NCBI GenBank assembly: GCA_012960465.1
Contig: DUBF01000148.1
Span: forward strand, 18,032 to 82,031
Direction: 5' to 3'
Origin: Rhodospirillales bacterium
GTDB taxonomy: Bacteria; Pseudomonadota; Alphaproteobacteria; Rhodospirillales; UBA2165
Length of the DNA: 64,000 bases
Shown: in pieces, positions 47,520 to 64,000 of the stretch
How positions within the stretch are numbered: position 1 is the first letter of the stretch
Layout: each line of letters opens with the position of its first letter
The notes under the pieces: generated by a model
What the model saw: only the letters and a program-made list of their open reading frames with translations
What the model was told of the DNA's origin: nothing
Databases searched by the model: none
Made by a program: the position numbers and the translations under genes

Positions 47520-48503
47520 TTATTTTTTTCTACGATTAAGCATTTTTTGCGAGAGTTTTGAGGCTCGGCCAGGGGTAGACCACGGGCATCTTGCAATACA
47601 AATAGCACACCCTAAAGCTTCACCAAATGTTGGTATGCATTTATCGAAATCGACAAACCATTTATTGACACCGCGGACCATCTGTTTTTCTGAAAAAATT
47701 GCCCCGGGAGGGCATGCCTTTACACAGATTTGACAATTATTACAAAAATCTTCGGAGCCTATATCTCTCATTTGATCAGCGATCAGTGGCATATCTGTAG
47801 TTACTGCTGAAAGTCTAAAAGATGAGCCAAATTCACCATGTATCAAAGAGCCATGCTTGCCGAGTGTACCCATTCCTGCGTCAATAGCGGCCGGCACCAT
47901 GCTTAGTGCCGATGCAAACGGCCCCGCCCATGGTTTAGCAAAGTACCCCTGACTGAGTATAAAATTGGTTAGTTCTCGGCAAACCCTAGCGGCACGATTA
48001 TATTGACGCGCGACTTCAACCGGCGATTCTGGTTTCTCGAGACTTGCCGGTACTTTGTCGAGCTCCGCATGATCCATGGTAACACCAACAATAATAACCC
48101 AAGGTTCATCTATCCGATATCCTTCGTAGATATAATGTGGATCCATTTTAGTGATACGGACATCATCACCTTCATGGCAGAGGGTAAATTCTTTAATTGC
48201 CATTACCCATTCTTCGGCAGATTTTTCAATAATAGTTTGTGCTTTTTCAATTGTTTTGGGGCCACGTGCTGCATTACTACTGTAGTGCTCAACAATTGCG
48301 GGAGATCGTCTCTGGATATCAACAACTTCAGTTTGTAATTCGCCAAAGGCGTGTTTGTCGTGAGGATGCCAAAAAAAGGGGGATGGGCTTCTAATCTCCG
48401 TTTCGTTTAGGCCATTTACCGTATTACCAGAAACATCTGGAAAAAGTGCTTTAAAATCATCAGCAGTTTCAGGTAGTTTTTTTGGTTTTTGTAGATCTGT
48501 CAT
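47520..48503 (-). CDS. Cytosolic 4Fe-4S protein resembling reductive dehalogenase/QueG family
   Basis: YNRAARVCRELTNFILSQGYFAKPWAG; FCNNCQICVKACPPGAI; GCAICIARCPWS; start trimmed from 48530. Confidence 0.75.
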   Translation of the reverse strand: MTDLQKPKKLPETADDFKALFPDVSGNTVNGLNETEIRSPSPFFWHPHDKHAFGELQTEVVDIQRRSPAIVEHYSSNAARGPKTIEKAQTIIEKSAEEWVMAIKEFTLCHEGDDVRITKMDPHYIYEGYRIDEPWVIIVGVTMDHAELDKVPASLEKPESPVEVARQYNRAARVCRELTNFILSQGYFAKPWAGPFASALSMVPAAIDAGMGTLGKHGSLIHGEFGSSFRLSAVTTDMPLIADQMRDIGSEDFCNNCQICVKACPPGAIFSEKQMVRGVNKWFVDFDKCIPTFGEALGCAICIARCPWSTPGRASKLSQKMLNRRKK

Positions 48504-48672
48504 GGCGCTATAGTGAAGATGTAGGACCAACCCATCAATACCTAATTATATTTTTTAATATTCATAGTTTTTATTATTGTGGTTGTGATAATCAGTTTTC
48601 TAGGTTAAAAAACAGAATATTGGTTACTAAAATCGAATTATTCGACGAGCTAATTAAATAAAGGTTCTTTAT

Positions 48673-49443
48673 TTAACAGCTATGAATTTTCATTCTATCC
48701 TGCCATTCTATGCCTTTGCTCCAGGCTAACATGTTTTTAGCATCAGGTTCTTTTTTATCAATATATAAGACTGTTCGCCATGCTAGGCTCAGCATGCAAG
48801 ACGTTACTGGCGGCCCCTCCCAATTTTTGCAATCTAGAATAGGCTGTAGTGTTGGCATTCCCGTGCCAAGCATCACGATTGCATCTATTTCTTTATTTTG
48901 GAGAGAGTATAAGGCTTCACTGCTACTATCTGCGCGAATACTATAGATCGGATGAAAATCGCTTTCATCATTATAAGTACTGGCAACTTCGGAAACTTCG
49001 AAACCAGCATTTTGCCAATAGCTTACACTGATCTTTGTTAAAGAAGCTGGGTATGGTGAAACTAATCCAATTTTTTTTGCGCCCAACGCATTAAATGAAT
49101 CGGTTACTGCGCGCGCTGCTGTAACAAATTCGAAGCCCTTACTTTTCTTGATTCGTTCACATATCTCGGTCTCTTTTTCTTGACCAATAAGATAGGAGGC
49201 GCCTGTGCAGCCAAAAGCAACAGCTTGTATAGGAGCATTTGCAAATTGATCAAGTGTCACTTCAATCTGGTTCGTATAGTCAACCAGTCGATCTTCCATC
49301 TCTTTTTTACTGCTTGTTAGACGGGCATTCAGCATTGTTACGCCAGCAGGCCATAATATTCTAAACTCAGGCTCTACAGTGGTATTGGCTTGAGGTGTTA
49401 ATACACCAACGAGACCACGTTTTGCATATTCTAGTTCGGTCAT
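48673..49443 (-). CDS. Maleate cis-trans isomerase / arylmalonate decarboxylase family (Asp/Glu racemase fold)
   Basis: LVGVLTPQANTTVEPEF; VAFGCTGASYLIG; VMLGTGMPTL; second Cys in VTSCMLSLAWR; start trimmed from 49458. Confidence 0.82.
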   Translation of the reverse strand: MTELEYAKRGLVGVLTPQANTTVEPEFRILWPAGVTMLNARLTSSKKEMEDRLVDYTNQIEVTLDQFANAPIQAVAFGCTGASYLIGQEKETEICERIKKSKGFEFVTAARAVTDSFNALGAKKIGLVSPYPASLTKISVSYWQNAGFEVSEVASTYNDESDFHPIYSIRADSSSEALYSLQNKEIDAIVMLGTGMPTLQPILDCKNWEGPPVTSCMLSLAWRTVLYIDKKEPDAKNMLAWSKGIEWQDRMKIHSC

Positions 49444-49537
49444 TTTTATTAAGTCCACTGAGTTTTAATTATCTTTAGTTTATGACATTGTTACAGGTGA
49501 AAAACCATAATTTCAATTTATGGGCAAGGTCTTTAAT

Positions 49538-50755
49538 ATGTTAAAGCAAGCTAACGAGAAACGTATTTTAATAGTTGGGGGTGGTCCTGTAGGATTATTT
49601 GCAGCGACACGTTTGGTTGACTTTGGAATTCCGGTTATACTCATTGATAAAGCCTCACAGGTTAGTACTGATATCCGCGCCTCTACAATTCACCCACCTT
49701 CCCTGGAAATGATGGCGCCTTACGGTATTACAGACGAGATACTTGAGACAGGAATTAAAGTACCGCAATGGCAAATACGTAATCACGCTACGGGTGAAAG
49801 GGTTGTTTTTGATCTTAAGCATATCGCAGATAAAACTAAGTACCCGTACCGTGTGCAGTTTGAGCAAAGTAAAATTTGTGCAATCATGGATAGGAGGCTC
49901 CAGGATAATCAGTTAGCCGATATTCGGTATGGAACAGAATTTGTGTCGTTTGACCAGAATAGCGCTGGTGTTTCAATCAATGTTAATACGGCAGCAGGAC
50001 CAGATAAAATCCATGGCCAATTTTTAATTGCAGCTGACGGGGGTGCTAGCCCAATTAGGGAACAGTTAGGACTAACTTTTGAAGGATCTACGTATTCTGA
50101 GAGAACTGTGTTGGTTACAACACCCTTTCCCTTCCATGAGCATATTGATGGATTGTCGAGTGTTAGCTATTGTTGGGAAAAAAAGGGTAATTTTAGTCTC
50201 CTGCAATTACCCGACCAATGGCGAGCTAGCCTCTGTTTTCCAGAAAATATGTCACCTGATGCTGCTTTGGCGGATGAACACATCCAAAAACAACTTCATG
50301 TTATATGTCCAATTGGCGAGCCATTCGAAATCTATGATAAGCGTGTCTATCGTGTTCATCAACGCATAGTATCTAAATATGATCATGGTCGAATTGCTTT
50401 GGCGGGTGATGCCGCGCATATTAATTCGCCATCTGGTGGTATGGGCATGAATGGTGGCTTACATGATGCCCATGACTTGGCAGAAAAATTAAATCAGATT
50501 TGGCTAAGTGAAGATGAGTATATTTATTTTGATCTTCTTGGTCTTTATTCGCGCCAGCGAAAACCGATTGCCGAAGAGCAAATTATTAAGCAAGCTGATG
50601 AAAATTGTAAGCGCATGACGGAGAAGAACCATGAAAAGCGGCGAAAATCTCTAGATGAATTGCTAGATATCTCGAGCGACCCTGTAAAGTGTCGGGCTTT
50701 TCTATTGAAATCGTCGATGTTTGAAGGTTTGCGCCAGGCTTCACTTATTGAGTGA
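49538..50755 (+). CDS. FAD-dependent monooxygenase (class A aromatic hydroxylase family)
   Basis: ILIVGGGPVGLFAATRLVDFGIPVILIDK; GRIALAGDAAHINSPSGGMGMNGGLHDAHDLAEKL. Alternative start 49520. Confidence 0.92.
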   Translation: MLKQANEKRILIVGGGPVGLFAATRLVDFGIPVILIDKASQVSTDIRASTIHPPSLEMMAPYGITDEILETGIKVPQWQIRNHATGERVVFDLKHIADKTKYPYRVQFEQSKICAIMDRRLQDNQLADIRYGTEFVSFDQNSAGVSINVNTAAGPDKIHGQFLIAADGGASPIREQLGLTFEGSTYSERTVLVTTPFPFHEHIDGLSSVSYCWEKKGNFSLLQLPDQWRASLCFPENMSPDAALADEHIQKQLHVICPIGEPFEIYDKRVYRVHQRIVSKYDHGRIALAGDAAHINSPSGGMGMNGGLHDAHDLAEKLNQIWLSEDEYIYFDLLGLYSRQRKPIAEEQIIKQADENCKRMTEKNHEKRRKSLDELLDISSDPVKCRAFLLKSSMFEGLRQASLIE

Positions 50756-50826
50756 CATTAAATATTTGGCATTTCTGCAATACGTGAAAAATAAAGGTTA
50801 GAAAATTCAACTAGTAGAAAAATAGA

Positions 50827-52101
50827 GTGAATTTGATGGGACAAACAATAGCTGAAAAAATTATCGCAAAAGCGGCTGGTCAGCAGACTGTTAAGCCGGG
50901 TGATATCGTTACCTGTAATGTCGATCTAGCTATGATCCACGATAGTGGTGGTCCGCGCCGGGTTAAACCTTTAATGGAAAAACTTGGGGTTAGCGTCTGG
51001 GATCCAAACAAGGTTGTTTTGATTTCCGACCATTTTACTCCCTGTACGGATGCTGAGAGCGCAAACATTCTTAAATTGACAAGAGAATGGGCAGCGGAAC
51101 AGGGTATTATTAATTTTTATGATCAACAGGGGATTTGTCATGTGGTAACTCCTGAGCGTGGGCACATTCACCCTGGAATGTTTGCTGTCGGTGGTGACAG
51201 CCATTCACCGACGGGCGGAGCTTTTGGTAGTTATATGTTTGGAATTGGTGCAACTGATATGCTTGGTGTCCTTGTCACGGGTCAGACTTGGATAAAAGTG
51301 CCCGAGACTATTAACATTAAATGGTCTGGAGATTTTGGTGTTGGAATAGCAGCTAAAGATATGGCCCTTAAAATGTGTGCTACGCTCGGCATGGATGGTG
51401 GAGATTATCAGTCAATTCTGTACTCAGGTGATACAATAGAAAATTTGGATATGATGGAACGCATGACGTTGAGTAATATGGCAGCGGAACTCGGTGCGCA
51501 ATCTGGTCTGATCGAGCCAGATGAAAAAACTGTTGATTATATTAAGTCAGTGGGAGGTGTTCCCGGCGATTGGCAGAATTTTAAGAGTGATCCAGATGCG
51601 AACTATAGCGTTTCACATGAATTTAGTGCTATAGATTTAGAACCGCAGGTAGCCGTACCACATAGCCCAGCGAATGCAGTAGCTGTTGGAGACGTTGGAA
51701 AGGATCAGATTGATCAATTTTATATTGGTGCATGTACTGGGGCTAAATTAAATGACTTGGAAATGGCGGCCTCTGTTCTCAAGGGTAAGAAAATTGCTGC
51801 TGGCAAACGTCTTACAGTTGCACCGGCCTCTTCGCGCATCCTGGCCCAAGCGATCAAGCAGGGGATAATCGAAGTTTTACTAGAAGCTGGAGCAGGTTTG
51901 TTGCCTCCTGGCTGTGGGGCTTGCGCAGGTTACGGAGTAGGTGTTTTAGCAGAGGATGAAGTTTGCCTGGCTTCAACTGCCCGGAATTTTCAAGGTAGAA
52001 TGGGGGCGAGTACTTCTAAAGTGTATTTAGCATCGCCTTACACGGTTGCCGCCAGTGCGATACGGGGACATATCTCAGACCCAAGAGAGGAGCTATTATA
52101 A
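50827..52101 (+). CDS. Aconitase/3-isopropylmalate dehydratase family large subunit (LeuC/HacA/DmdA-like)
   Basis: GGDSHSPTGGAFGSYMFGIGATDM; IGACTGAKLNDLEMAA; GCGACAGYGVGVLAEDE Fe-S ligands. Confidence 0.9.
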   Translation: MNLMGQTIAEKIIAKAAGQQTVKPGDIVTCNVDLAMIHDSGGPRRVKPLMEKLGVSVWDPNKVVLISDHFTPCTDAESANILKLTREWAAEQGIINFYDQQGICHVVTPERGHIHPGMFAVGGDSHSPTGGAFGSYMFGIGATDMLGVLVTGQTWIKVPETINIKWSGDFGVGIAAKDMALKMCATLGMDGGDYQSILYSGDTIENLDMMERMTLSNMAAELGAQSGLIEPDEKTVDYIKSVGGVPGDWQNFKSDPDANYSVSHEFSAIDLEPQVAVPHSPANAVAVGDVGKDQIDQFYIGACTGAKLNDLEMAASVLKGKKIAAGKRLTVAPASSRILAQAIKQGIIEVLLEAGAGLLPPGCGACAGYGVGVLAEDEVCLASTARNFQGRMGASTSKVYLASPYTVAASAIRGHISDPREELL

Positions 52102-52586
52102 TGTCCAGTCGTGTTTGGAAGTTTGGAGATGATATTAATACAGATATTTTAGCACCGGGTATATACATTAAATTACCCCTAAACGAACTTGCACAGCATT
52201 GTCTTGAGTCCATTGATCCTAGTTTTGCTTCTAGGGTATGTGAAGGAGATATCATTGTGGCGGGCAATAATTTTGGGATGGGTTCAAGTAGAGAGCAGGC
52301 GCCTCAAGTTTTGAAGGAACTTGGTATTACTGCGGTTATAGCGGCTTCTTTTGGCGGTATATTTTATCGTAATGCTTTTAATCTCGGCTTGCCCGCGATA
52401 ATTTCTAAAGATTTCACAAAAATCGCTGCAGACCATCAAATTGAACTTGATATTAAAACTGGAAGAATTTGTAATATTACTACAGGTCAAGATTTAGTTG
52501 GAGAAAAAATACCGGAAAATTTATTGACACTTATTGAAGCTGGCGGGCTTGTGCCTTACCTGGAAAGTAACTTGAATAATAATTAA
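52101..52586 (+). CDS. Aconitase/3-isopropylmalate dehydratase family small subunit (LeuD/DmdB-like)
   Basis: KFGDDINTDILAPGIYIKL; GNNFGMGSSREQAP; ATG overlaps large-subunit stop. Confidence 0.9.
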   Translation: MSSRVWKFGDDINTDILAPGIYIKLPLNELAQHCLESIDPSFASRVCEGDIIVAGNNFGMGSSREQAPQVLKELGITAVIAASFGGIFYRNAFNLGLPAIISKDFTKIAADHQIELDIKTGRICNITTGQDLVGEKIPENLLTLIEAGGLVPYLESNLNNN

Positions 52587-52599
52587 TTAAGGAGTGGCC

Positions 52600-53478
52600 A
52601 TGTCGCCGCAGAAAATCTTAAGAGATCGTCTCGACCAGGATAAAATTATACTTACACCAGGTATATATGATGCTTTTGGAGCAATGATGGCTGAGCGGGC
52701 TGGTTTTGAGGCGCTTTACCTGTCCGGGGCTTCGATAGCTTATACAAAATTAGGCCGCCCAGATATAGGACTCGTAACCTTGGACGAGTTGGCGTCTGTT
52801 GTAGGAACAATTCGTGAGCGGACAGACTTACCTACAATCGTTGATGCGGATACGGGGTTTGGTAATGCGCTCAATGTTCAGCGCACTGTAAAACTCTTGG
52901 AGCGCAATGGTGCCTCTGGTATTCAACTGGAGGATCAGTCTCTGCCAAAACGCTGCGGACACCTTGATGGTAAAATGCTGATAACTGCAGATGAAATGAA
53001 TGGTAAAGTCAAAGCAGCTCTCGATGCGCGTATGGATGAAAATACTGTTATCATAGCAAGGACAGATGCTATTGGGGTTGAAGGCTATGAGAGTGCCATG
53101 GATCGCGCAGTTGGTTATGTCGAGGCAGGAGCTGATGTCTTGTTTATTGAAGCTATGCAAAATACTGAACAAATTGCAGGGGCTATAAAACAATTCGGAG
53201 GCAAAGTTCCGTTATTAGTAAATATGGTTGAAGGTGGTAAAACTCCAATGGCGCCAGCTTCTGAATTGGAAGAAAAGGGTTTTTCGATTGTAATATTTCC
53301 CGGTGCTTTGGTTCGTGTGCTTGCTCATGCTGCGGAGAATTATTTTAATTCGCTACTCAAGCATGGCTCAACTTTGCATCACAAATCTCAAATGTTTGAT
53401 TTTAATGAGCTAAATGAACTTCTAGGCACGGAAGAAATGCTTGAAATAGGTAATCGTTACACAGATGGTGGAGATTAA
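52600..53478 (+). CDS. Isocitrate lyase/PEP mutase superfamily C-C lyase (2,3-dimethylmalate lyase / methylisocitrate lyase / oxaloacetate decarboxylase-like)
   Basis: DRLDQDKIILTPGIYDAFGAMMAERAGFEALYLSG; VDADTGFGN; LEDQSLPKRCGHLDGK. Confidence 0.9.
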   Translation: MSPQKILRDRLDQDKIILTPGIYDAFGAMMAERAGFEALYLSGASIAYTKLGRPDIGLVTLDELASVVGTIRERTDLPTIVDADTGFGNALNVQRTVKLLERNGASGIQLEDQSLPKRCGHLDGKMLITADEMNGKVKAALDARMDENTVIIARTDAIGVEGYESAMDRAVGYVEAGADVLFIEAMQNTEQIAGAIKQFGGKVPLLVNMVEGGKTPMAPASELEEKGFSIVIFPGALVRVLAHAAENYFNSLLKHGSTLHHKSQMFDFNELNELLGTEEMLEIGNRYTDGGD

Positions 53479-55216
53479 GATGCAAAAACTCGACCCTGTG
53501 ATGCTGGCTGTCCTTAAAGGACGGTTGGAGCAAATTGCGGATGAAATGGATGCGACGCTTTTTCGTAGTGCGTTTAATCCAATAATAGCTGAAGCTCATG
53601 ATGCCAGTCATGGGCTCTACCATGCCAAAACTGGTGAGACCTTAATTCAAGGCAAGTCTGGCCTACCCGTTTTCGTTGGAGCTATGTCATTTGCGGTAAA
53701 AATGGTGATCGATAAAGTTGAAGTCGAAAATATTGTTCTCAAACAGGGTGATGTTTTCGTATTTAACGATCCTTATGAAGGTGGAACTCACCTTTCAGAT
53801 TTTAAACTCGTAAAGCCTTTCTTTCATGAGGGCGAGATTTTTTGCTTCTTAGCTTCCGTTGGCCACTGGCACGACGTAGGTGGAAATGTGCCAGGTAATT
53901 ATAATCCCGTTGCAACGGAGTGTTACCAAGAAGGCATGCTAATCCCTCCAGTGTTTCTTTATAAGGAAGGTGTTCTCAATGAAGATATTATTGCAATTTT
54001 ACAATCTAATTCGCGCCTACCAGGCAGTCTTTATGGTGATCTGAATGGACAAGTTAGCGCTCTTGATCTCGGTGATCGAAGATTAAAGGATTTGCTTCAA
54101 GAATATGGTAAAGAGAAAATTACATCTGCTTTAGTTGAACTGAATCAAAGTGCTGCCAGGCTCATGGCGAGTTATATTAGTGATCTTCCAAACGGTACTT
54201 ACTCGGCTGAAGATTGGCTCGACAATGATGGTATTATCGATGAGCCGCTAAAAATTGGCCTTGATATTATTATTGCTGATAACCGAATGACTTTGGATTT
54301 TTCTAGAACATCGGCTGCATGTGATGGACCAGTAAATATCTCGCGTTCTACGTGTATTGCGTCTTGCTATGTTGCGCTTAAGCATATTTTTCGTGAGGTT
54401 CCGGCCAATGCTGGAGTGCTGGAGCCGATTGATTTTATAATTCCAGAAGATAGCTTACTAAGTGTTGGTCGCCCAAAACCCGTTTGTGGTTATACTGAGA
54501 CAATTCTTCGTGTTATCGATGTTATGTTTCAGGTGATTTCTCAAGTTGCTCCAGAAATGAGTAATGGCTGTGCATACGGAACCATCAATGCATTATCAAT
54601 GGCAGGTTATCGTAAGAATGGCGTTCGCTGGGTTATGTTTTCTTTCTTTGGCGGCGGCCACGGCGGCCATCCTAATGGTGACGGCCTTAATCATGGAAAT
54701 GCGCCAATTTCAACAGCCACCATTCCCCCACTGGAAATCTTGGAGGCTGCCTATCCAATCCGTTTTACCCGATGGGCCCTCAGGCCAGATAGTGGTGGGC
54801 CAGGTAAAAACCGTGGTGGTTGCGGTGCAATTTATGAGATTGAATTACTTGAAGAAAAAGCTGATGCTTTTTTGTTTGGCGAACGAGGCAAATTTGGCCC
54901 GCCCGGTGTTATAGGGGGTGAGAGCGGAGCTCTAAATAAATTTAGTTATCCGACTGGCGTCAATGGTGAAACATCACCCCCGATGGTTTCTAAGATGGTT
55001 GGCATTCATCTGGAGCAAAATCAGCGTATACGTCTGGAAACGCCGGGTGGTGGAGGCTACGGCGATGCTTTTGAGCGAGATCCAAAACTTGTTGCCGAGG
55101 ATGTGCGACTTGGTTATGTAACGGCTAATTCAGCATTTGAAAACTATAGATGTTCGGTATCTGATGACGGGATCCTTGATCAACAAGAAACTGACCGGTT
55201 GCGAGAAACGAGCTAA
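53465..55216 (+). CDS. hyuB: Hydantoinase B/oxoprolinase family protein
   Basis: RLEQIADEMDATLFRSAFNPIIAEAHDASHG; VFNDPYEGGTHLSDF; GGHGGHPNGDG. Met at 53480 is an alternative start. Confidence 0.94.
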   Translation: MVEIKMQKLDPVMLAVLKGRLEQIADEMDATLFRSAFNPIIAEAHDASHGLYHAKTGETLIQGKSGLPVFVGAMSFAVKMVIDKVEVENIVLKQGDVFVFNDPYEGGTHLSDFKLVKPFFHEGEIFCFLASVGHWHDVGGNVPGNYNPVATECYQEGMLIPPVFLYKEGVLNEDIIAILQSNSRLPGSLYGDLNGQVSALDLGDRRLKDLLQEYGKEKITSALVELNQSAARLMASYISDLPNGTYSAEDWLDNDGIIDEPLKIGLDIIIADNRMTLDFSRTSAACDGPVNISRSTCIASCYVALKHIFREVPANAGVLEPIDFIIPEDSLLSVGRPKPVCGYTETILRVIDVMFQVISQVAPEMSNGCAYGTINALSMAGYRKNGVRWVMFSFFGGGHGGHPNGDGLNHGNAPISTATIPPLEILEAAYPIRFTRWALRPDSGGPGKNRGGCGAIYEIELLEEKADAFLFGERGKFGPPGVIGGESGALNKFSYPTGVNGETSPPMVSKMVGIHLEQNQRIRLETPGGGGYGDAFERDPKLVAEDVRLGYVTANSAFENYRCSVSDDGILDQQETDRLRETS

Positions 55217-55218
55217 AC

Positions 55219-57297
55219 ATGGTCAGTAAACCAAAAAGATCTAGGACAGTCGTTGGGGTCGATGTAGGCGGTACCTTTACAGATGTGTTTTTCCTGAATG
55301 AAGTTGATGGTTCGTGTGATGTGGCGAAGGTGCCTTCAACTCGCAGTGATCAATCTGTTGGAATCCAAGAAGGGATTGCACAACAATTAAAAAAGCTCTC
55401 TGAAGTTTCTCTAATAATTCATGGTACCACTGTTGGAACCAATGCACTTCTCGAACGCAAAGGAGCTAAGACTGGAATTATCACAACGCGGGGATTCCGT
55501 GATGTAATAGAAATGCGAAGACGCGATCGGCCGGAAACATGGGGTCTTTGGGGAATGTTCGAGCCGATTGTATCCCGTGAACTGCGGGTTGAGGTTGATG
55601 AGCGGGTTTTGGCTGATGGTACGATCCTTACTCAACTTGATGCAAGTGATGTGAAATCAGCAGCGGGGAAACTACTATCCCTTGGGGCCGAATCCGTTTG
55701 CATATTTTTTATAAATAGCTACGCCAATGACACTAATGAAAAACTGGCAGTTAAAACTCTAAAAGAAATATGGCCAAACGACCACATTACATCTTCTTCT
55801 GAAATACTTCCGGAAATCCGGGAATTTGAACGTTGTTCGACTGCAACTTTAAATGCTTATTTGCAGCCTCCTATTGGTGATTACCTTGAGCGGCTTGAAG
55901 GGGGGCTGCAGAAAGGCGGATTTGGTGGTGAAGTATTAATTGTGCAATCTAATGGTGGCGTAATGTCAGTTAATATGGCCCGATCGTTTCCAGTCCGAAC
56001 GGCATTGTCTGGTCCAGCAGCGGGCGTCATCGCCGGAGCTTATATTGGTGTGAGTGCTGGATTTCCAAATCTTATAACATGCGATATGGGAGGGACGAGC
56101 TTTGACGTGTCTCTCGTTGCCGATGGTGAAAGCGCGCTTGCTGCACAAACAGCAGTGGACTTTGGTATGGTAGTTCGTACGCCAATGATAGAAATCACAA
56201 CAATTGGTGCAGGTGGCGGCTCAATAGCATCTGTTGATAGAGGTGGCTTGCTACAAATTGGGCCTGAAAGTGCAGGATCTGATCCCGGACCCGTTTGTTA
56301 TGGGCAAGGTAATGATCGTCCAACGGTGACAGATGCTAATGTTGTCTTGGGGAGGATCAATGCAGAAAAACCAATCGGCGGTAAGTTAGCTCGCTTGGAT
56401 GTTGACGCAGCCAAAAAAGCAATAAAGATACACGTTGCTGATTTGTTGGAAATCGAAATTATGGACGCTGCTGAAGCTATTATTAGGGTTGCTAATGCAA
56501 AGATGGCGGGCGCTATCCGTTTGGTTTCTGTGGAACGCGGACATGATCCTGAAAAATTTGTTGCTATGCCATTTGGCGGTGGGGGCGCTTTACATGCTGG
56601 TGCGCTTATAAAAGATGTTGGTTTATCAAAAGCTCTGGTGCCACGCTATCCCGGCGTAACGAGTGCATTAGGTTGTATCATCGCTGATATGCGGTTTGAT
56701 AGGGTACATACAATTAATGCTGTACTTGATGATCTCGACATTAGAAAACTTGCATCTGAAATAAAAAAGACAGCAGAAGATGGTCAAAAACGTTTGGTTG
56801 AGGCTGATGTAACGTTTGACGGTGTAGAGCATTTAATTGAATTGGATATGCTTTATTTAGGACAAACCCATACTGTAGCGGTCAGGTTACCTGTTGGATT
56901 AGAAGATATTAAAAGTAGTTTGAATACTAACGTTATTCGCACCGCTTTTGAAAATACATATGAAAAAGTTTTTGGACGGTTATTGCATAACATTGGAATA
57001 AGGGTCCTTAACCTTAGAGTAACCGTGATTGGCCGTCGGCCAAAGTTTGATTTATCAATCCTCGGTCCTTCAGGTGATTATACAATTGAGGAAGCTAAAA
57101 TTGATTCTCGAGAAGTTTGGTTTGAAGGTAAATGGCGGCAAACAGACGTGTATAGTCGTTTAAATCTTCCTAAAGAGCAGGTTGTGTCGGGTCCCGCCTT
57201 ACTAGAGCAACCGGATACGACTATATTTATAGATCCTGATCTAGAAGGTAAAGTCGACCAATTTGGCAATTTAATTATTTCTCGAAAGAATGTTTGA
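55219..57297 (+). CDS. hyuA: Hydantoinase A/oxoprolinase family protein
   Basis: VVGVDVGGTFTDVFFL; IIHGTTVGTNALLERKGAKTG; TCDMGGTSFDVSLV. Confidence 0.95.
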   Translation: MVSKPKRSRTVVGVDVGGTFTDVFFLNEVDGSCDVAKVPSTRSDQSVGIQEGIAQQLKKLSEVSLIIHGTTVGTNALLERKGAKTGIITTRGFRDVIEMRRRDRPETWGLWGMFEPIVSRELRVEVDERVLADGTILTQLDASDVKSAAGKLLSLGAESVCIFFINSYANDTNEKLAVKTLKEIWPNDHITSSSEILPEIREFERCSTATLNAYLQPPIGDYLERLEGGLQKGGFGGEVLIVQSNGGVMSVNMARSFPVRTALSGPAAGVIAGAYIGVSAGFPNLITCDMGGTSFDVSLVADGESALAAQTAVDFGMVVRTPMIEITTIGAGGGSIASVDRGGLLQIGPESAGSDPGPVCYGQGNDRPTVTDANVVLGRINAEKPIGGKLARLDVDAAKKAIKIHVADLLEIEIMDAAEAIIRVANAKMAGAIRLVSVERGHDPEKFVAMPFGGGGALHAGALIKDVGLSKALVPRYPGVTSALGCIIADMRFDRVHTINAVLDDLDIRKLASEIKKTAEDGQKRLVEADVTFDGVEHLIELDMLYLGQTHTVAVRLPVGLEDIKSSLNTNVIRTAFENTYEKVFGRLLHNIGIRVLNLRVTVIGRRPKFDLSILGPSGDYTIEEAKIDSREVWFEGKWRQTDVYSRLNLPKEQVVSGPALLEQPDTTIFIDPDLEGKVDQFGNLIISRKNV

Positions 57298-57902
57298 TGA
57301 GTAAAACGACAGCACTTGTTCTTATTGATATGCAGAACGATTTCATACATCCGGAGGGTGCTTATGCCCGGGGTGGGGCAACATCAGATTATATTGCTGC
57401 ACTACCCAAGGCGTTAAAGCCAGTTGCGGAGGTTGTTCGACGGGCAGGTGGTTGGATAGTTTCGACACATTTCACTTTAGTGCCTGGAAAAAATAGTAAA
57501 CCTTTTATTGCTGATCACTTGTTAGAACTACGCCCCTTTCTTGCTGAAGGTGATTTTTCCCCTGGGAGTTTTGGTCATAGGCTTATTGATGAATTAGCTC
57601 CGGCAGATTTATTGGTAGAAAAAATAGCCTATTCAGCGTTTTATATGAGCCGCATGGACTGGATGTTAAAACAAGCTGGGATTGAACATTTGATATACGG
57701 CGGTATTGTTACGAATGGCGGTGTGGCTTCTACTGTTAGAGATGCCCATGTGCATGGCTACCGTAATACTGTATTATCTGACGGGTGTGCGGCTTTTGAT
57801 GCGAAAATCCATAATATTTCTATCGAAAGTTTGAAAACTGTTGCTGAAATAAAAACTTGTGGGGAAATACTCAATTTACTGGAGGGTCGAAGGCGTGAAT
57901 AA
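57294..57902 (+). CDS. Isochorismatase family hydrolase, catalytic Cys position replaced by Gly
   Basis: ALVLIDMQNDFIHPEG; LVEKIAYSAFY; GGIVTNGGVASTVRDAHVHGY; ATGA overlap with hyuA. Confidence 0.9.
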   Translation: MMSKTTALVLIDMQNDFIHPEGAYARGGATSDYIAALPKALKPVAEVVRRAGGWIVSTHFTLVPGKNSKPFIADHLLELRPFLAEGDFSPGSFGHRLIDELAPADLLVEKIAYSAFYMSRMDWMLKQAGIEHLIYGGIVTNGGVASTVRDAHVHGYRNTVLSDGCAAFDAKIHNISIESLKTVAEIKTCGEILNLLEGRRRE

Positions 57903-58578
57903 TATAAATAAACAAAGTTTGCAGGCGTGGTTTCGTGCTCATTCGCAAAGCCGTTTGGGTCGGGACTATATCAATGAGAGGTTTGTGGCTAAGAAAACTG
58001 CGCTCGTTGTCGTTGATATGCAGAATTATTTTATGAAACCAGGTTTTTTAGCAGCTTGTCCGATGGCTATCGAAATTGTTTCCGTAATTAACGAGATGGC
58101 AAGTGATTTGCGGGAGAAGGGTGGTACTGTCGTTTGGATACAAACTACGGCTGCCCCTGAAGCAACTAAAGATTGGAGTATTTATAAGGAACTATATACC
58201 TCGAAAAATTGGGAACGCAGGAATACTGAGCTCGCCGAGGACCATGAGGGGTACGAAATTTGGCCAGAATTAATGGTATCCGATACAGACCTTCGGGTTA
58301 AAAAGTCTCGTTTTAGTGCATTCATTGCCGGTTCGTCTGACATTGACACGCAGTTAAAAGCCTTGAATATAGATACTTTATTGATATCGGGTGTTGCCAC
58401 CAGCGTTTGCTGTGAAGCTACTGCACGTGATGCGATGATGCTGAATTATAGAACTACGATGGTGTCGGATGGCCTTGCATCGATGACTATTGAAGCTCAT
58501 GAGAATGCTCTCAAAGCTTTATACGGGATGTTTGCTGATGTCCAAATGTGTTCGGAAATTAAATCCAAACTCGTATGA
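57895..58578 (+). CDS. Isochorismatase family cysteine hydrolase
   Basis: ALVVVDMQNYFMKPG; KSRFSAF; GVATSVCCEATARDAMMLNY; GTG start at 57895. Confidence 0.91.
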   Translation: MNNINKQSLQAWFRAHSQSRLGRDYINERFVAKKTALVVVDMQNYFMKPGFLAACPMAIEIVSVINEMASDLREKGGTVVWIQTTAAPEATKDWSIYKELYTSKNWERRNTELAEDHEGYEIWPELMVSDTDLRVKKSRFSAFIAGSSDIDTQLKALNIDTLLISGVATSVCCEATARDAMMLNYRTTMVSDGLASMTIEAHENALKALYGMFADVQMCSEIKSKLV

Positions 58579-58698
58579 TGATAGTATTAGTTAAAATATT
58601 TATGAGAAAAAGTTTCGCGGTATCTTTTAAAAGATTAAACATATGGTATAATAATCTCAAAGATAATAATTATACATAAACGCACTAGATTTATGAAA

Positions 58699-58719
58699 AT
58701 AGAATAAATGCTATTCTAT
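58699..58719. promoter_or_regulatory. Candidate operator upstream of dctP: perfect 8-bp inverted repeat, 5-nt spacer
   Basis: ATAGAATA-aatgc-TATTCTAT, 34 nt before the dctP start. Confidence 0.5.
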
Positions 58720-58753
58720 CGGAATAATTTTTGAACAGTGGAGGAGTTAAATT

Positions 58754-59767
58754 ATGAAGATATTCAAAATCTCAATATATAGCTGTGTGGTAGCCTTGAC
58801 ATGCTTTTCAGCAGCACTATTTGGTTTGCCAAACAAGAGTAATGCAGAAACAAAATTAACACTCATCTATCCTTTTCCCGATTTTCTCCAGTATACGAAA
58901 AATTGTAAGGCATTGGCGAAAGAGATCAATAAACGTGGTAAAGGTGTTATCAAAATTGAAGTTTTGCCATTCAATTCAATTAAGATGTTTGCCCAGGCAC
59001 CAGCAGTCAGTAAGGGCCGGGTCGATTTGAACTGTATACCCGCCGCTTTTTATGCGAGAGCTGTTCCTGAATTAGAGGCCGTCTCAACGGCGAGTTCCAC
59101 AGTGGAGCAAGCACGAAAGTCTGGTGGAATTGATATGTTGGATAAGCTCCAGCAAAAGTATTTTAAGGTTAAGTATTTAGGCTGGACAACGGACGGCAAT
59201 AAATTTCGAATTTACATGAAAAATAAGCCAAAGTTTGGGTCTAATGGCCTTGTAGATTTTAGTGGTGTTAAGCTTCGGGGTAATCCAATTTATGGGGCAT
59301 TTTTGAAGGCTATGGGAGCCACAACGCATAGTTTACCCGCAACTGCAACTTATGGCGCCCTAGAAAAAGGCGTTGTTGACGCGGCAGCTTGGGCGACAAC
59401 AGGACTCAGGGGTCTTAAGTGGGATAAAATGCTTCGGCATGCGATCGAACCTGATTTTTATGCTACGGATATTGGCTGGATTATCAACCTTAAGAGATGG
59501 AATGGTTTGAGTGCCAAGGCAAAAAATGTTCTACAATCAACGGTTAAAGAATATGAATTAGCGAATAGAAATGGTTTGCTAAAACTTCAGACGGCAGAAA
59601 GAAAAGCTTTAATCAGTGGTGGAATGAAATTCCATACTGTTCCTGACCCTAAAAAATACTTAAAGCTGGCGGTCGACTCGGCTTATGAGAGAATGGTCGG
59701 ACGCTTAAAGAAAGCTAAAAGAAGTACAGATCATATATCTAAACTTCGGGCTGCATGGCAGCAGTAG
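58754..59767 (+). CDS. TRAP transporter substrate-binding protein (DctP family)
   Basis: Signal peptide; KLTLIYPFPDFLQYTKNCKALAKEINKRGKG; KLRGNPIYGAFLKAMGATTHSLPATATYGALEKGVVDAA. Confidence 0.92.
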   Translation: MKIFKISIYSCVVALTCFSAALFGLPNKSNAETKLTLIYPFPDFLQYTKNCKALAKEINKRGKGVIKIEVLPFNSIKMFAQAPAVSKGRVDLNCIPAAFYARAVPELEAVSTASSTVEQARKSGGIDMLDKLQQKYFKVKYLGWTTDGNKFRIYMKNKPKFGSNGLVDFSGVKLRGNPIYGAFLKAMGATTHSLPATATYGALEKGVVDAAAWATTGLRGLKWDKMLRHAIEPDFYATDIGWIINLKRWNGLSAKAKNVLQSTVKEYELANRNGLLKLQTAERKALISGGMKFHTVPDPKKYLKLAVDSAYERMVGRLKKAKRSTDHISKLRAAWQQ

Positions 59768-59815
59768 CAAAAAAGTTAAAAGTTATTGTACTAATTGTTT
59801 CTTAAGCAATCTTGT

Positions 59816-60382
59816 ATGTTTAAACTTTTAGATGATATTTGGGGTAAGGTACTAGCGGGATTAATGGGCATAGCTGCAATCTATGTCACCTTAATAATGT
59901 TCGCCATTGTTTACACTAGCGGGTTTCGTTATTTGGGTTTTTCTTATTCCCCTCTTACCATCCCATTTATTGAGTATGGCTTTATTTACATATTATTTCT
60001 TGGATCACCCTTTTTAGTAAGGATGCGGGGGCATGTTTATATTGAAATGCTCACGGCCGCACTGGGTGATTTTCAACGGCTCATTGTATCAAGATTAATT
60101 TGCCTATTGGCAGGTGGCGTTTGCCTCACCTGGGCTTGGTACACCGGGCTTCTTTTTCTCGAGCGTTATGAAGATATTATGGCTTATGACGAGCTTCGAG
60201 CTCAATGGGATATTCCGCTTTGGATTAGCACATTACCTTTCCCAATAGGATTTTTTCTTATGTCAATTGAATTCTTTCGTTTTGTATTTATCGCAGAACC
60301 TATGCATACGGGTTTAGCAGGTATTGCTAGCGATCGGATAGAACTTGAAGAAACCAAGCGAGACTTGGAGGGCTTGAGCTAG
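59816..60382 (+). CDS. TRAP transporter small permease (DctQ family)
   Basis: Four hydrophobic segments, YGFIYILFLGSPFLVRMRGHVYIEML; position between DctP and DctM. Alternative start 59795. Confidence 0.9.
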   Translation: MFKLLDDIWGKVLAGLMGIAAIYVTLIMFAIVYTSGFRYLGFSYSPLTIPFIEYGFIYILFLGSPFLVRMRGHVYIEMLTAALGDFQRLIVSRLICLLAGGVCLTWAWYTGLLFLERYEDIMAYDELRAQWDIPLWISTLPFPIGFFLMSIEFFRFVFIAEPMHTGLAGIASDRIELEETKRDLEGLS

Positions 60383-61789
60383 ATGGAATGGTACTGGATT
60401 TTATTCTTATTGCTTGGTTCTATACTTTTTCTCATGTTCGTTGGGGTGCCCATAGGGATTGCCTTCATATTTGTGAATTCAGTAGCGGCATTTTTTCTTT
60501 ACGGAAGATTTGGAAGTTTTGACGCTAATGTATCAGCTAGCATTGGCCAGCTTACGGATAACGCATTTGCTAATATGGCAATCTTTGCGATTGTCCCGAT
60601 ACCGATGTTTTTATTAATGGGGGAGCTTTTTTTTCATTCAGGACTCGCAAAGAGAATGTTTGATGCAATTGAAAATCTGATGGGAAGTATCCCCGCGCGT
60701 CTTTCTTATGTGACTGTAGCTGGCGGAACCGCTTTTGCCACACTTTCTGGATCATCGATGGGTTCAACGGCTCTTCTTGGCACCTTAATGGTGCCTGAAA
60801 TGGAAGAGCGGGGCTATGACAAGAGTATGTCGATTGGTCCAATACTTGGCACTGGCGGATTGGCTATGTTAATTCCACCATCTGCCCTGGCGGTTTTGCT
60901 TGGAACTTTGGCAGAACTAGATATTGGTAAGTTATTAATAGCAGGTGTTTTGCCAGGTTTAATTTTAGCCACTATGTACGCAATACTCATATATGTGAGG
61001 GTCACATTAAAACCATCCTTGGCGCCCTCTTATGAAGTGAAACGAATTCCTTGGTCAACAAGAATAAAGTATTTTCTGGTTGATGTGGTTCCGATGGTTT
61101 CAATTATTTTTCTCGTAATTTTATTAATAATGTTTGGGATTGCTACCCCATCGGAATCGGCAGCATACGGATCCCTGAGTGTAGTTATTTTATCGTTTAT
61201 TTATTTACTTATTATTCCTTTGCTCCAAGGAGATCTTGATAAAGTCAAAATATTCTGGCCAAATTTCCAGGTAGCCATGTGGAAGTCAATGTGGGGGGCA
61301 AGTAGAGTAACGATAATTGCATTAATGATCCTCTTCGGGTCCAGCTTGTTTTCAAATGTTCTCGCCGGTTCTGGTGCTAGCGTTAAGCTGATTGAATGGG
61401 TTACGAGTTTTGAAATTTCTGGACTTGGTATGTTAATGGCGATGTTTGTCATTCTATTATTTTTAGGGATGTTTATGGATCAGTTAGCGATGATGTTGCT
61501 TACTGTTCCTATTTTTTTCCCTATTATGGCTGGTTTTGATCTAGGAATGGGCCCTGAAAAGCAAGTGATATGGTTTGCTGTGATAATGTTGTTAGCGATG
61601 GAAATAAGTTTTACGACGCCACCTTTTGGTCTCCTGTTATTTGTTATGCAGGGCGTCGCGCCGTCTGGTACTAGGTTCGTTGAGATTTGTTTAGCCGCTG
61701 TTCCATTTATGCTGTGTGCCATGGCTTTAGTAGTGTTAATTATCATTTTCCCAAGTATTACAACTTGGTTGCCATTTTTGACTAAATGA
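60383..61789 (+). CDS. TRAP transporter large permease (DctM family)
   Basis: ASFATLSGSS-type motif (AFATLSGSSMGSTALLGTLMVPEMEERGYDKSMSIGPILGTGGLAMLIPPS). Confidence 0.95.
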   Translation: MEWYWILFLLLGSILFLMFVGVPIGIAFIFVNSVAAFFLYGRFGSFDANVSASIGQLTDNAFANMAIFAIVPIPMFLLMGELFFHSGLAKRMFDAIENLMGSIPARLSYVTVAGGTAFATLSGSSMGSTALLGTLMVPEMEERGYDKSMSIGPILGTGGLAMLIPPSALAVLLGTLAELDIGKLLIAGVLPGLILATMYAILIYVRVTLKPSLAPSYEVKRIPWSTRIKYFLVDVVPMVSIIFLVILLIMFGIATPSESAAYGSLSVVILSFIYLLIIPLLQGDLDKVKIFWPNFQVAMWKSMWGASRVTIIALMILFGSSLFSNVLAGSGASVKLIEWVTSFEISGLGMLMAMFVILLFLGMFMDQLAMMLLTVPIFFPIMAGFDLGMGPEKQVIWFAVIMLLAMEISFTTPPFGLLLFVMQGVAPSGTRFVEICLAAVPFMLCAMALVVLIIIFPSITTWLPFLTK

Positions 61790-61813
61790 TCCTTACCTCG
61801 TTATGTAACGTAT

Positions 61814-61831
61814 TTTATTCGGACGAATAAA
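61814..61831. repeat. AT-rich perfect palindrome between convergent genes, possible weak bidirectional terminator
   Basis: TTTATTCG-ga-CGAATAAA between the dctM stop and the ligase stop. Confidence 0.4.
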
Positions 61832-63388
61832 TTACTTAATGGTCAGTCTTTGTTCGAGAATATGCCGCTGGATTTTACCTGAAGTACTCCGAGGTATTTC
61901 ATCATTCTTCAAAAAATGTACCTCTTTAGGTAATTTATACTTAGCAATTCGGTCGCGACATAGATCAATTATATCGATGCTTTTTATTTTATCTGAATTA
62001 CTGGCGACAAAAGCTACAGGGACCTCTCCCCAACGTTCATCAGGTTTACGGACTACAGCTACATCAATAATTCTATCATCTACCATTATATGCTGTTCTA
62101 TTTCTGCAGGATAAATATTTTCACCACCTGATTTGATCATATATTTAACTCTATCGACAAAATCGAGCAGTCCTTCAGGCGTTCGTCTAAACACATCTCC
62201 CATATGAAACCAGCCATTACGAAAGGCTTCCGCATTCGCCTCCTCGTTCGCCCAATAACCTGAAAATAAACTAGGTCCTCTAATGGCTAGTTCACCGGGC
62301 TCGCCATCTTTAACGTCATTGTCATTTGGATCCACCAAACGAATTTCACAAAAGTTATTTTGTTTTTTTGACAAAACCTCAGGAGCAATACCAATCGGTA
62401 TCAGATTGCCAGAAGCTGGGGGGTTGCCTGTTTCGGTTGAGCCAAACGTATTAAAGTAAGGTGCATCCAATAATATGGTAATTTCTTTTAACATCGATCT
62501 TGGGACTAAATCTGCCATGGCTCCTATTAAACCAATAGGTTTTGGCTTGGCATTTGATAATTTTAACTGATTGATAAAGTCCTCAATCATACCCGGTACG
62601 ACTGTCAGGTAATGCACCGGATACATTTCAATAGATCTGATTATTTCATCGGGCTGGTATCCATCAATAATAACGACTTGACCGCCACGTAAGAGGGTAG
62701 CAATGCTAAAATCGTTTGAGCCCATATGAAATAGTGGCGTCCAGGCAATGAAAGTGTCATTTTTGGGTGCTCTCGTTTCTTCAGCGAAAATCAAGGCTCT
62801 GGTTATAATCGCGCGGTGACTGATAAGGGCGCCTTTAGGCAGGCCCGTTGTTCCACTGGTAAATATTATTACTAATCCATTCTCGGCATCAACTAAGTCT
62901 GTTGGTTCTTCATTTGATGAGTTGCGAAGTAAATTCTCGTATTCAGTGTGGAATAAAATATTTTGTACTTCGCCACTGTTTGGCAATAATTCTTGGAATT
63001 CAATAGCGGAAAAAATTAATTTAGGTTGGGTTAGATCGAGACAATGTTTTACTTCTTCCCTGGCTAATCGCCAATTTAAACTAACTAGAATAGCACCTAT
63101 TTTTGCACATGCTAACTCCACCTCAAGAAATGCTGCACAGTTACGGGCTATTAACGCGATACGGTCTCCATGTTTTAGATTCTTATCTAATAAACCATTT
63201 GCTAATTGATTAACTCTATCATTCAATTCCCTGTATGTAATCCTACGATCATATTCAATAATCGCATTGTTATCTGGCGATTGATCAGCAATACCTTTGA
63301 AGAGCCTACCGATATTTGTCGCACTTGCCTGCAGGATCGTCTGAGATGGTTGGTAACTATTATTTGAGCTTGTCATATACCTGCTCAA
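61832..63388 (-). CDS. AMP-dependent acyl-CoA synthetase/ligase
   Basis: IIFTSGTTGLPKGALISHRA; NTFGSTETG; GELAIRGPSLFSGYW; VDRVKYMIKSGGENIYPAEIE. Met at 63376 possible. Confidence 0.93.
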   Translation of the reverse strand: MSRYMTSSNNSYQPSQTILQASATNIGRLFKGIADQSPDNNAIIEYDRRITYRELNDRVNQLANGLLDKNLKHGDRIALIARNCAAFLEVELACAKIGAILVSLNWRLAREEVKHCLDLTQPKLIFSAIEFQELLPNSGEVQNILFHTEYENLLRNSSNEEPTDLVDAENGLVIIFTSGTTGLPKGALISHRAIITRALIFAEETRAPKNDTFIAWTPLFHMGSNDFSIATLLRGGQVVIIDGYQPDEIIRSIEMYPVHYLTVVPGMIEDFINQLKLSNAKPKPIGLIGAMADLVPRSMLKEITILLDAPYFNTFGSTETGNPPASGNLIPIGIAPEVLSKKQNNFCEIRLVDPNDNDVKDGEPGELAIRGPSLFSGYWANEEANAEAFRNGWFHMGDVFRRTPEGLLDFVDRVKYMIKSGGENIYPAEIEQHIMVDDRIIDVAVVRKPDERWGEVPVAFVASNSDKIKSIDIIDLCRDRIAKYKLPKEVHFLKNDEIPRSTSGKIQRHILEQRLTIK

Positions 63389-63924
63389 GCCTTCTCCGTT
63401 AATGCCAGTACTCTAACGGGACTGCCTGAGCCTTGGCGTATTTTTAAAGGTGGTGTAATTATTACTGAGCCTTGAGGTGGTAATTTATCTAAATTAGTGA
63501 GCGCAGGGAGCCCAAACCGGCCGTTTCCATGCATTAGATGATGACAGGGCATCGGTACCGTGAAGTGGGCAGCTTGACCTGCGTCCGTACCGACCGCTTC
63601 ACATCCAAAGCCAACAACATCGCGTTGATCTATGAGCCAAGGTATTAAATTCTGATGTGGACCTGGCGTATGGGCGCCTTCTTCATCTAGATTCAGGTAT
63701 TCAGCTGGGTCTTTTTTAAGGGACCAATCGGTCCTCATGAGCAACCAAGAACGCGGGGGTATTTTACCGTTATTTTTTTCCCAAGTCTCAACATCTTTGG
63801 TGGTTAGAAGATAATCGGGGTCCTTGTTTGCTTCAGAACAGCAATCAATTACGCAGGCATGGCTGCGATCGCCCTCCTCACGTACACGCTAATACCGCTG
63901 TTCATCAAAAGAATTAGAAGTCAT
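63385..63924 (-). pseudogene. Cyclase family protein (kynurenine formamidase-like), apparently decayed: N-terminal half missing and in-frame TAG
   Basis: C-terminal half intact (ACVIDCCSEANKDPDYLLTTKDVETWEKNNGKIPPRSWLLMRTDW...TPGPHQNLIPWL); upstream MTSNSFDEQRY then TAG at 63891..63889; HxGTHxD metal motif absent. Confidence 0.7.
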
Positions 63925-64000
63925 ATTAGTTTTAACATGGAAAGATTGTTTGGTCTTTCGGTAACTCCTAACTCCTAACATCCTATATCTAACATCATAT

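Follow-up and report, generated by a model that had tools for sequence, protein, structure and literature searches.

The 64,000-nucleotide stretch of DNA analysed here (the window) comes from a Rhodospirillales bacterium and encodes, at positions 50827-57902, a conserved six-gene core with the order LeuC-LeuD-lyase-HyuB-HyuA-ICH1, which usually has an importer adjoining it. The window is the right-hand end of its contig (G000:C148:18032-82031), which stops at window base 64000. The products of the core may degrade an imported cyclic imide or amide with a side-chain carboxylate to pyruvate and glutarate by the successive action of HyuAB, LeuCD and a C-C lyase; the probability of this reading is estimated at about one half. 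The genes of the core are:

50827-52101, plus strand: LeuC, large subunit of an aconitase-family hydratase; PF00330; NF001614 545 bits, hacA_fam 492 bits, IPMI_arch 479 bits
52101-52586, plus strand: LeuD, hydratase small subunit of the LeuD/DmdB subfamily; TIGR02087 175 bits, cut-off 109
52594-53478, plus strand: PrpB-like C-C lyase of the isocitrate lyase (ICL)/phosphoenolpyruvate (PEP) mutase superfamily; PF13714; motifs KRCGH and NMVEGGKTP; TIGR02317 (prpB) 307 bits, cut-off 354
53465-55216, plus strand: HyuB, hydantoinase B/caprolactamase beta-like; PF02538 539 bits; NF050157 (CapB) 289 bits, below cut-off
55219-57297, plus strand: HyuA, ATP-dependent, hydantoinase A/caprolactamase alpha-like; PF01968, PF05378, PF19278; NF050156 (CapA) 535 bits, below cut-off
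57294-57902, plus strand: ICH1, isochorismatase-fold protein without the catalytic cysteine, paired with HyuAB; PF00857; GIVTNGGVAST

Orthologues of the lyase with at least 57% identity are present in 12 genomes of the family to which the window belongs, including its own, and in three more of its order. Genes at the GC-rich loci of these relatives were called by tblastn together with codon-scored calling. The order LeuC-LeuD-lyase-HyuB-HyuA is kept in all 11 other loci of the family, and ICH1 follows except where the contig ends. In the window, the genes from LeuC to ICH2, the gene after ICH1, lie close together: neighbours either overlap by 1 to 44 bases or are separated by 2 to 7. An original prediction, made from the letters of the window alone, had joined imide or amide opening, hydration of a substituted maleate, ICL-type cleavage and an importer into one module, and had called for a comparison of gene neighbourhoods. 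That comparison bears the module out: the core genes stay together in relatives and do not separate into modules that fail to co-occur, while the ring opener is exchanged.

The module is widespread. Of 385 genomes drawn evenly from the class, 45 have a lyase orthologue (E ≤ 1e-95), which, like the conserved gene order in the family, exceeds what chance would give. A wider survey combined the best 80 matches from a scan of 84,980 species genomes for the lyase with loci from sampled genomes of the class, of the phylum and of f53, a large family of Alphaproteobacteria; the f53 lyases share 70-84% identity with the Sulfitobacter enzyme. Within this set the core recurs in Alpha- and Betaproteobacteria. 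Genes of a tripartite ATP-independent periplasmic (TRAP) importer lie near the core in 6 of the 11 family loci and in 31 of the 41 from f53. The f53 layout is nearly invariant, with TRAP-LeuD-LeuC-GntR divergent from tautomerase-HyuB-HyuA-ICH1-lyase-FADdh, and its LeuCD pair differs from that of the window (about 33% identity to LeuC). The cluster of Sulfitobacter pontiacus is located on a plasmid (NZ_CP081118.1). A metagenome-assembled Chromatiales genome (L087) has the lyase and LeuCD without HyuAB.

The ring-opening genes occupy an interchangeable slot. Among 185 loci, the opener is HyuAB in 116, a hydantoinase/allantoinase-like amidohydrolase in 12, a PuuE-like enzyme in 12 and none of these in 45, and no locus holds two types. 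By lyase entries, 117 of 196 belong to the HyuAB type, and the opener changes at least ten times on a FastTree phylogeny of the 196 lyases. Of 114 loci with HyuA, 110 also have ICH1, and the remaining four are short or truncated; in the PuuE version, two PuuE-like enzymes and another isochorismatase-fold protein, ICH3, replace HyuBA and ICH1, with ICH3 present in 10 of the 12 loci. Because HyuAB is replaced by unrelated cyclic-amide hydrolases while the other partners are kept, these exchanges are the strongest evidence obtained for a slot that opens a cyclic imide or amide. A few loci have amidases in this position, and others a short-chain dehydrogenase/reductase (SDR) with two conserved proteins that we take to be DUF4387 and AtuA-like.

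Characterised relatives of the openers offer precedents. The N-methylhydantoin amidohydrolases and caprolactamases (CapAB) share the HyuA and HyuB families and the ATP-dependent opening of cyclic amides; the window proteins have the Hydantoinase_A and Hydantoinase_B domains but miss the caprolactamase equivalog cut-off of 1000 bits, and are paired with a cysteine-less isochorismatase-fold protein. For the PuuE type, the precedent is HxnM of Aspergillus nidulans, a PuuE-fold cyclic imidase that opens an imide, after which HxnN hydrolyses the amide (PMC9304392). The Aspergillus product is 2-hydroxyglutarate, however, and no hydratase or lyase acts after it.

LeuC and LeuD score above the cut-offs of NF001614 and TIGR02087 and thus form a LeuCD-type hydratase. 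The loop of LeuD was tried as a marker of specificity; it reads GxYMK in LeuD but ARFMS in LeuD2, and is not decisive. In the lyase, C121 and H123 of the KRCGH motif, D84, D86, E113, R156 and further residues are invariant in 196 sequences, which places the protein in the ICL/PEP-mutase superfamily. Residues F184, I234 and P236 align with F186, L234 and P236 of Escherichia coli PrpB; the phenylalanine and proline are invariant in the same set and the isoleucine is nearly so. In PrpB these side chains presumably form the methyl pocket, a space taken up by W, F and T in isocitrate lyase. Whereas PrpB has NITEFG or NMTEFG, the orthologues of the window lyase have N[MI][VI]EGG (NMVEGG in the window). 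The dimethylmalate lyase of Aspergillus niger (3fa3) has NMVEHG and ranks first in a local sequence match of a 55-residue segment of the lyase. A methylisocitrate-like substrate longer by one CH2 would fit both the pocket and the NMVEGG segment.

Two known systems combine such a hydratase and lyase. In the 2-methylcitrate cycle, PrpB likewise releases pyruvate and a dicarboxylate after an aconitase-type hydration, and KRCGH and the pocket residues F, I/L and P are shared; by contrast, the lyase described here carries NMVEGG, scores below the PrpB cut-off and is linked to ring openers and a glutaryl-CoA dehydrogenase, and no methylcitrate synthase was recognised with it. In the nicotinate fermentation of Eubacterium barkeri, a LeuCD-type hydratase (DmdAB) and the ICL-type dimethylmalate lyase act in turn on a substituted maleate. 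The enamidase, B12 mutase and methylitaconate isomerase of that system were not seen here, where HyuAB and an importer are found instead.

The nature of the second lyase product is indicated by neighbouring genes. In loci L080, L240, L249, L258 and L262, the next gene after FADdh, read in the same direction, encodes a glutaryl-CoA dehydrogenase, and four of these loci continue with a gene for a CaiB-type CoA-transferase; all but L080 belong to f53, each in a different genus. The L080 enzyme scores 551-611 bits with glutaryl-CoA dehydrogenases of solved structure and 221 with the next acyl-CoA dehydrogenase family. For the CoA-transferase of L080, the best family is succinate-glutarate CoA-transferase (NF052585) with 529 bits, which misses the cut-off of 750, and the next family scores 303. 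In L199 and L201 the dehydrogenase gene adjoins LeuC in divergent orientation, and in L070 it lies near LeuC. It thus occurs in 8 of 193 loci, where its frequency in 12 genomes would predict 1.1 (Poisson P = 2e-5); counted as six independent changes on the tree, the probability is P = 1e-3. These figures are guides only, being post hoc among many neighbour families, with L199 and L201 from the same genus. A further copy is present outside the cluster in four of the genomes (G1164, G919, G1107 and G073), and the cluster copy is the only one in G1168 and G205. The linkage to the dehydrogenase and the CoA-transferase indicates that the lyase probably releases glutarate, in which case its substrate would bear a CH2CH2COOH group. 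On contig C43 of the window's own genome, a glutaryl-CoA dehydrogenase gene and a HyuAB paralogue are about 10 kb apart; they apparently belong to separate aromatic and UbiD-HyuAB gene sets and were left uncounted.

The reactions, their order and the substrate are deduced from the gene content, synteny, mutual exclusion of openers, dehydrogenase linkage and active-site residues observed in these sequences. The importer would bring in a cyclic imide, or a cyclic amide, with a free side-chain carboxylate. HyuAB would open the ring with ATP, and the half-amide would then lose its nitrogen, perhaps through ICH1 or a different amidase. LeuCD would hydrate the substituted maleate so formed, which is a tricarboxylate, and the PrpB-like lyase would split the 2-hydroxy acid obtained, in a retro-Claisen reaction, into glutarate and a 2-oxo acid, most probably pyruvate. 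In most relatives, FADdh, a flavoprotein of the fumarate reductase family that resembles flavocytochrome c, urocanate reductase and the tricarballylate-utilisation protein TcuA, probably makes the double bond from a saturated form. The window genome, which is 98.8% complete, yielded no FADdh but only distant matches of the succinate dehydrogenase type; therefore, its substrate should already be unsaturated.

Hematinic acid, a maleimide with a methyl and a carboxyethyl substituent, is the natural imide known to us that bears both of the groups expected. Tentatively, and with less confidence than the general scheme, it is proposed as the substrate, or its dihydro form derived from chlorophyll where FADdh is present, with glutarate passing on to glutaryl-CoA dehydrogenase; the module may then represent a widespread undescribed pathway for tetrapyrrole imides. 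The release of hematinic acid from heme has been reported for E. coli ChuS (PMC11442138), and the compound is present in leaves alongside products of chlorophyll and also, according to work cited in the same paper, in lake sediments (PMC7318184). In the literature naming the compound, as far as it was covered, no catabolic pathway for it was found; similarly, partial coverage of the literature gave no published description of this gene combination or of such a pathway, and for dimethylmaleate hydratase a single, unrelated paper. If the proposal holds, the module provides a genetic handle on the mineralisation in soil and sea of small imides from heme and chlorophyll, which make up a large flux of nitrogen-bearing carbon. 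Even with another substrate, it is a common module, to judge from the frequency of the lyase in the class, and its members bear generic names.

The substrates suggested in the original prediction were pyridine carboxylates and alkylmaleimides from tetrapyrroles. Routes from pyridine carboxylates through maleamate and maleate were rejected, because maleate needs no ICL-type lyase and the isomerase lacks a cysteine; with glutarate as the likely product, the tetrapyrrole alkylmaleimides fit better, and the substrate itself is still a proposal. It is unlikely, but deserves the most attention among the alternatives, that the same enzymes act on a smaller alkylmaleimide or alkylsuccinimide (methyl-, dimethyl- or ethylmethyl-), forming citraconate or a dialkylmaleate that is hydrated and cleaved to pyruvate or 2-oxobutyrate and acetate, propionate or butyrate. 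In its favour, the NMVE segment of the lyase best matches 2,3-dimethylmalate lyase and LeuD falls in the LeuD/DmdB subfamily; however, such substrates leave the co-operonic glutaryl-CoA dehydrogenase and CoA-transferase unexplained, and importers of the TRAP and TctC types usually need a carboxylate. The same dehydrogenase is left without a role if the imide of tricarballylate is opened, oxidised by FADdh to cis-aconitate, hydrated by LeuCD to isocitrate and cleaved to glyoxylate and succinate. Isonicotinate is degraded via citrazinate and tricarballylate according to older literature, although a literature search returned only materials work. The similarity of FADdh to the TcuA family speaks for this improbable route; yet FADdh scores below the TcuA cut-off and is missing from the window genome, a housekeeping aconitase could perform the hydration, and the lyase pocket resembles that of methylisocitrate lyase and not that of isocitrate lyase, if the residue roles are as we take them to be.

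The link to glutarate is shared by a route without the methyl group, in which a carboxyethylmaleimide would give homoaconitate, homoisocitrate and finally glyoxylate and glutarate. Homoaconitase models give good scores for LeuC and LeuD, but the residues that accommodate a methyl group are invariant or nearly so, no glyoxylate-handling genes were recognised in the loci, and we know of no natural substrate; little weight is given to this route. It is similarly doubtful that the opener acts on a lactam, a hydantoin or another ring, with ICH1 hydrolysing an enol ether or an enamine without a cysteine, in the manner of isochorismatase, and LeuCD and the lyase taking a fragment. Two points favour such a reaction: caprolactamase is the best match of HyuAB, for which the use of ATP is expected, and the cysteine-less ICH1 is tied to HyuAB. 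Against it, openers that use no ATP substitute for HyuAB and ICH1 with otherwise the same partners, and ICH3 of the PuuE version has the cysteine.

Several observations weigh against the conversion of an imide to pyruvate and glutarate. Imide opening needs no ATP, and relatives of HyuAB also use lactams and hydantoins. No recognised opener accompanies 51 of the 196 lyases, some of which have merely LeuCD. The HyuAB-type core is without a proven deamidase for the half-amide, as no fewer than 104 of the 110 ICH1 orthologues lack the cysteine, and clusters with a hydantoinase-like opener hold no isochorismatase-fold protein. Glutaryl-CoA dehydrogenase is confined to the eight loci described above, and the window genome's own copy sits elsewhere, beside genes resembling those of aromatic degradation. 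None of the genes in the cluster loci was recognised as specific to tetrapyrroles, so hematinic acid stays a proposal.

The original prediction had counted two isochorismatase-fold amidohydrolases. The fold is right for both, and ICH2 has the aligned Asp-Lys-Cys triad (GVATSVCCEAT); ICH1 keeps the aspartate and lysine, but its cysteine is replaced by glycine. The motif TNGG is found in 104 of 110 orthologues, the other six being outside the search pattern, and ICH3 keeps the cysteine. Deamidation by ICH1 is therefore unsupported by its residues. The ICH1 orthologue of Sulfitobacter pontiacus is annotated as 'isochorismatase family cysteine hydrolase' despite belonging to this cysteine-less family.

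Outside the core, the window contains the following features:

57859-58578, plus strand: ICH2, isochorismatase-fold hydrolase with cysteine (accessory); PF00857
58754-59767, plus strand: DctP, binding protein of the TRAP importer; PF03480
59795-60382, plus strand: DctQ, small permease of the TRAP importer; PF04290
60383-61789, plus strand: DctM, large permease of the TRAP importer; PF06808
48673-49458, minus strand: maleate isomerase/Amdase-like protein of the Asp/Glu racemase superfamily (accessory); PF17645; weak match of 48 bits to maleate isomerase 4fq5
49520-50755, plus strand: group A flavin monooxygenase, FAD_binding_3 (accessory); PF01494
61832-63388, minus strand: AMP-dependent acyl-CoA ligase (accessory); PF00501
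47520-48530, minus strand: reductive-dehalogenase (RDH)/QueG-like Fe-S protein; TIGR02486 99 bits, cut-off 160
63385-63888, minus strand: C-terminal part of a PF04199 cyclase, broken or truncated; 29 bits; stop upstream near 63888 by frame check; contig end

All genes named in the original prediction are intact open reading frames of the families assigned to them and lie where it had placed them; the true start of ICH2 is probably later than that of its listed frame. The claim of a single catabolic run from 47520 to 63924 survives for the core, the order of which recurs in the 11 relatives, and for its importer, and is not supported for the rest. The region 47520-64000 uses both strands, with LeuC to DctM and the monooxygenase on the plus strand and four flanking or other genes on the minus strand. 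The monooxygenase, the maleate-isomerase-like gene, ICH2 and the ligase, which had been included as members, are passengers: among the family loci, the monooxygenase adjoins the core in two only (G010 and G015), the maleate-isomerase-like gene is near it in three, and ICH2 beside ICH1 and the ligase at the same position are both limited to G004 and G007. The maleate-isomerase-like protein belongs to the Amdase/maleate isomerase family as predicted, and an alignment of homologues shows the first cysteine (FGCTGAS) in place and the second, needed for an isomerase, replaced (LGTGMPTL). The RDH-like gene, with a single partial 35% match in relatives at the edge of a locus, is probably outside the module, and the cyclase fragment, which has no counterpart at the core of other family loci, lies outside it.

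Other loci of the survey have further neighbours. In L077, L079 and L123, which have none of the three openers, a Liv ABC importer, an SDR and a conserved gene pair precede GntR-LeuCD-FADdh-lyase. Plasmid pTM1 of Tistrella mobilis (L267, 440048-464890) has two MmgE/PrpD and two Asp/Glu racemase-family genes without HyuAB, and an amidase nearby on the other strand. Directly after the PuuE-type cluster of L070 (13628-19952) are tandem similar genes that appear VOC-like by eye. A membrane protein, a molybdopterin-type oxidoreductase and a 4Fe-4S protein form a triad adjoining LeuC in a relative of the window (L041:3543-7593) and in a betaproteobacterium (L064:366-4460). A protein with a SAM-methyltransferase domain and an extra N-terminal part adjoins the cluster in nine loci by clustering, among them L061:5758-6852, L070:6771-8009 and L071:10970-12127. 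Contig C43 of the window genome carries a second one-strand set (L264:4006-9814) of UbiD-like, HyuA, HyuB and maleate-isomerase-like genes, which are 26-33% identical to those of the window.

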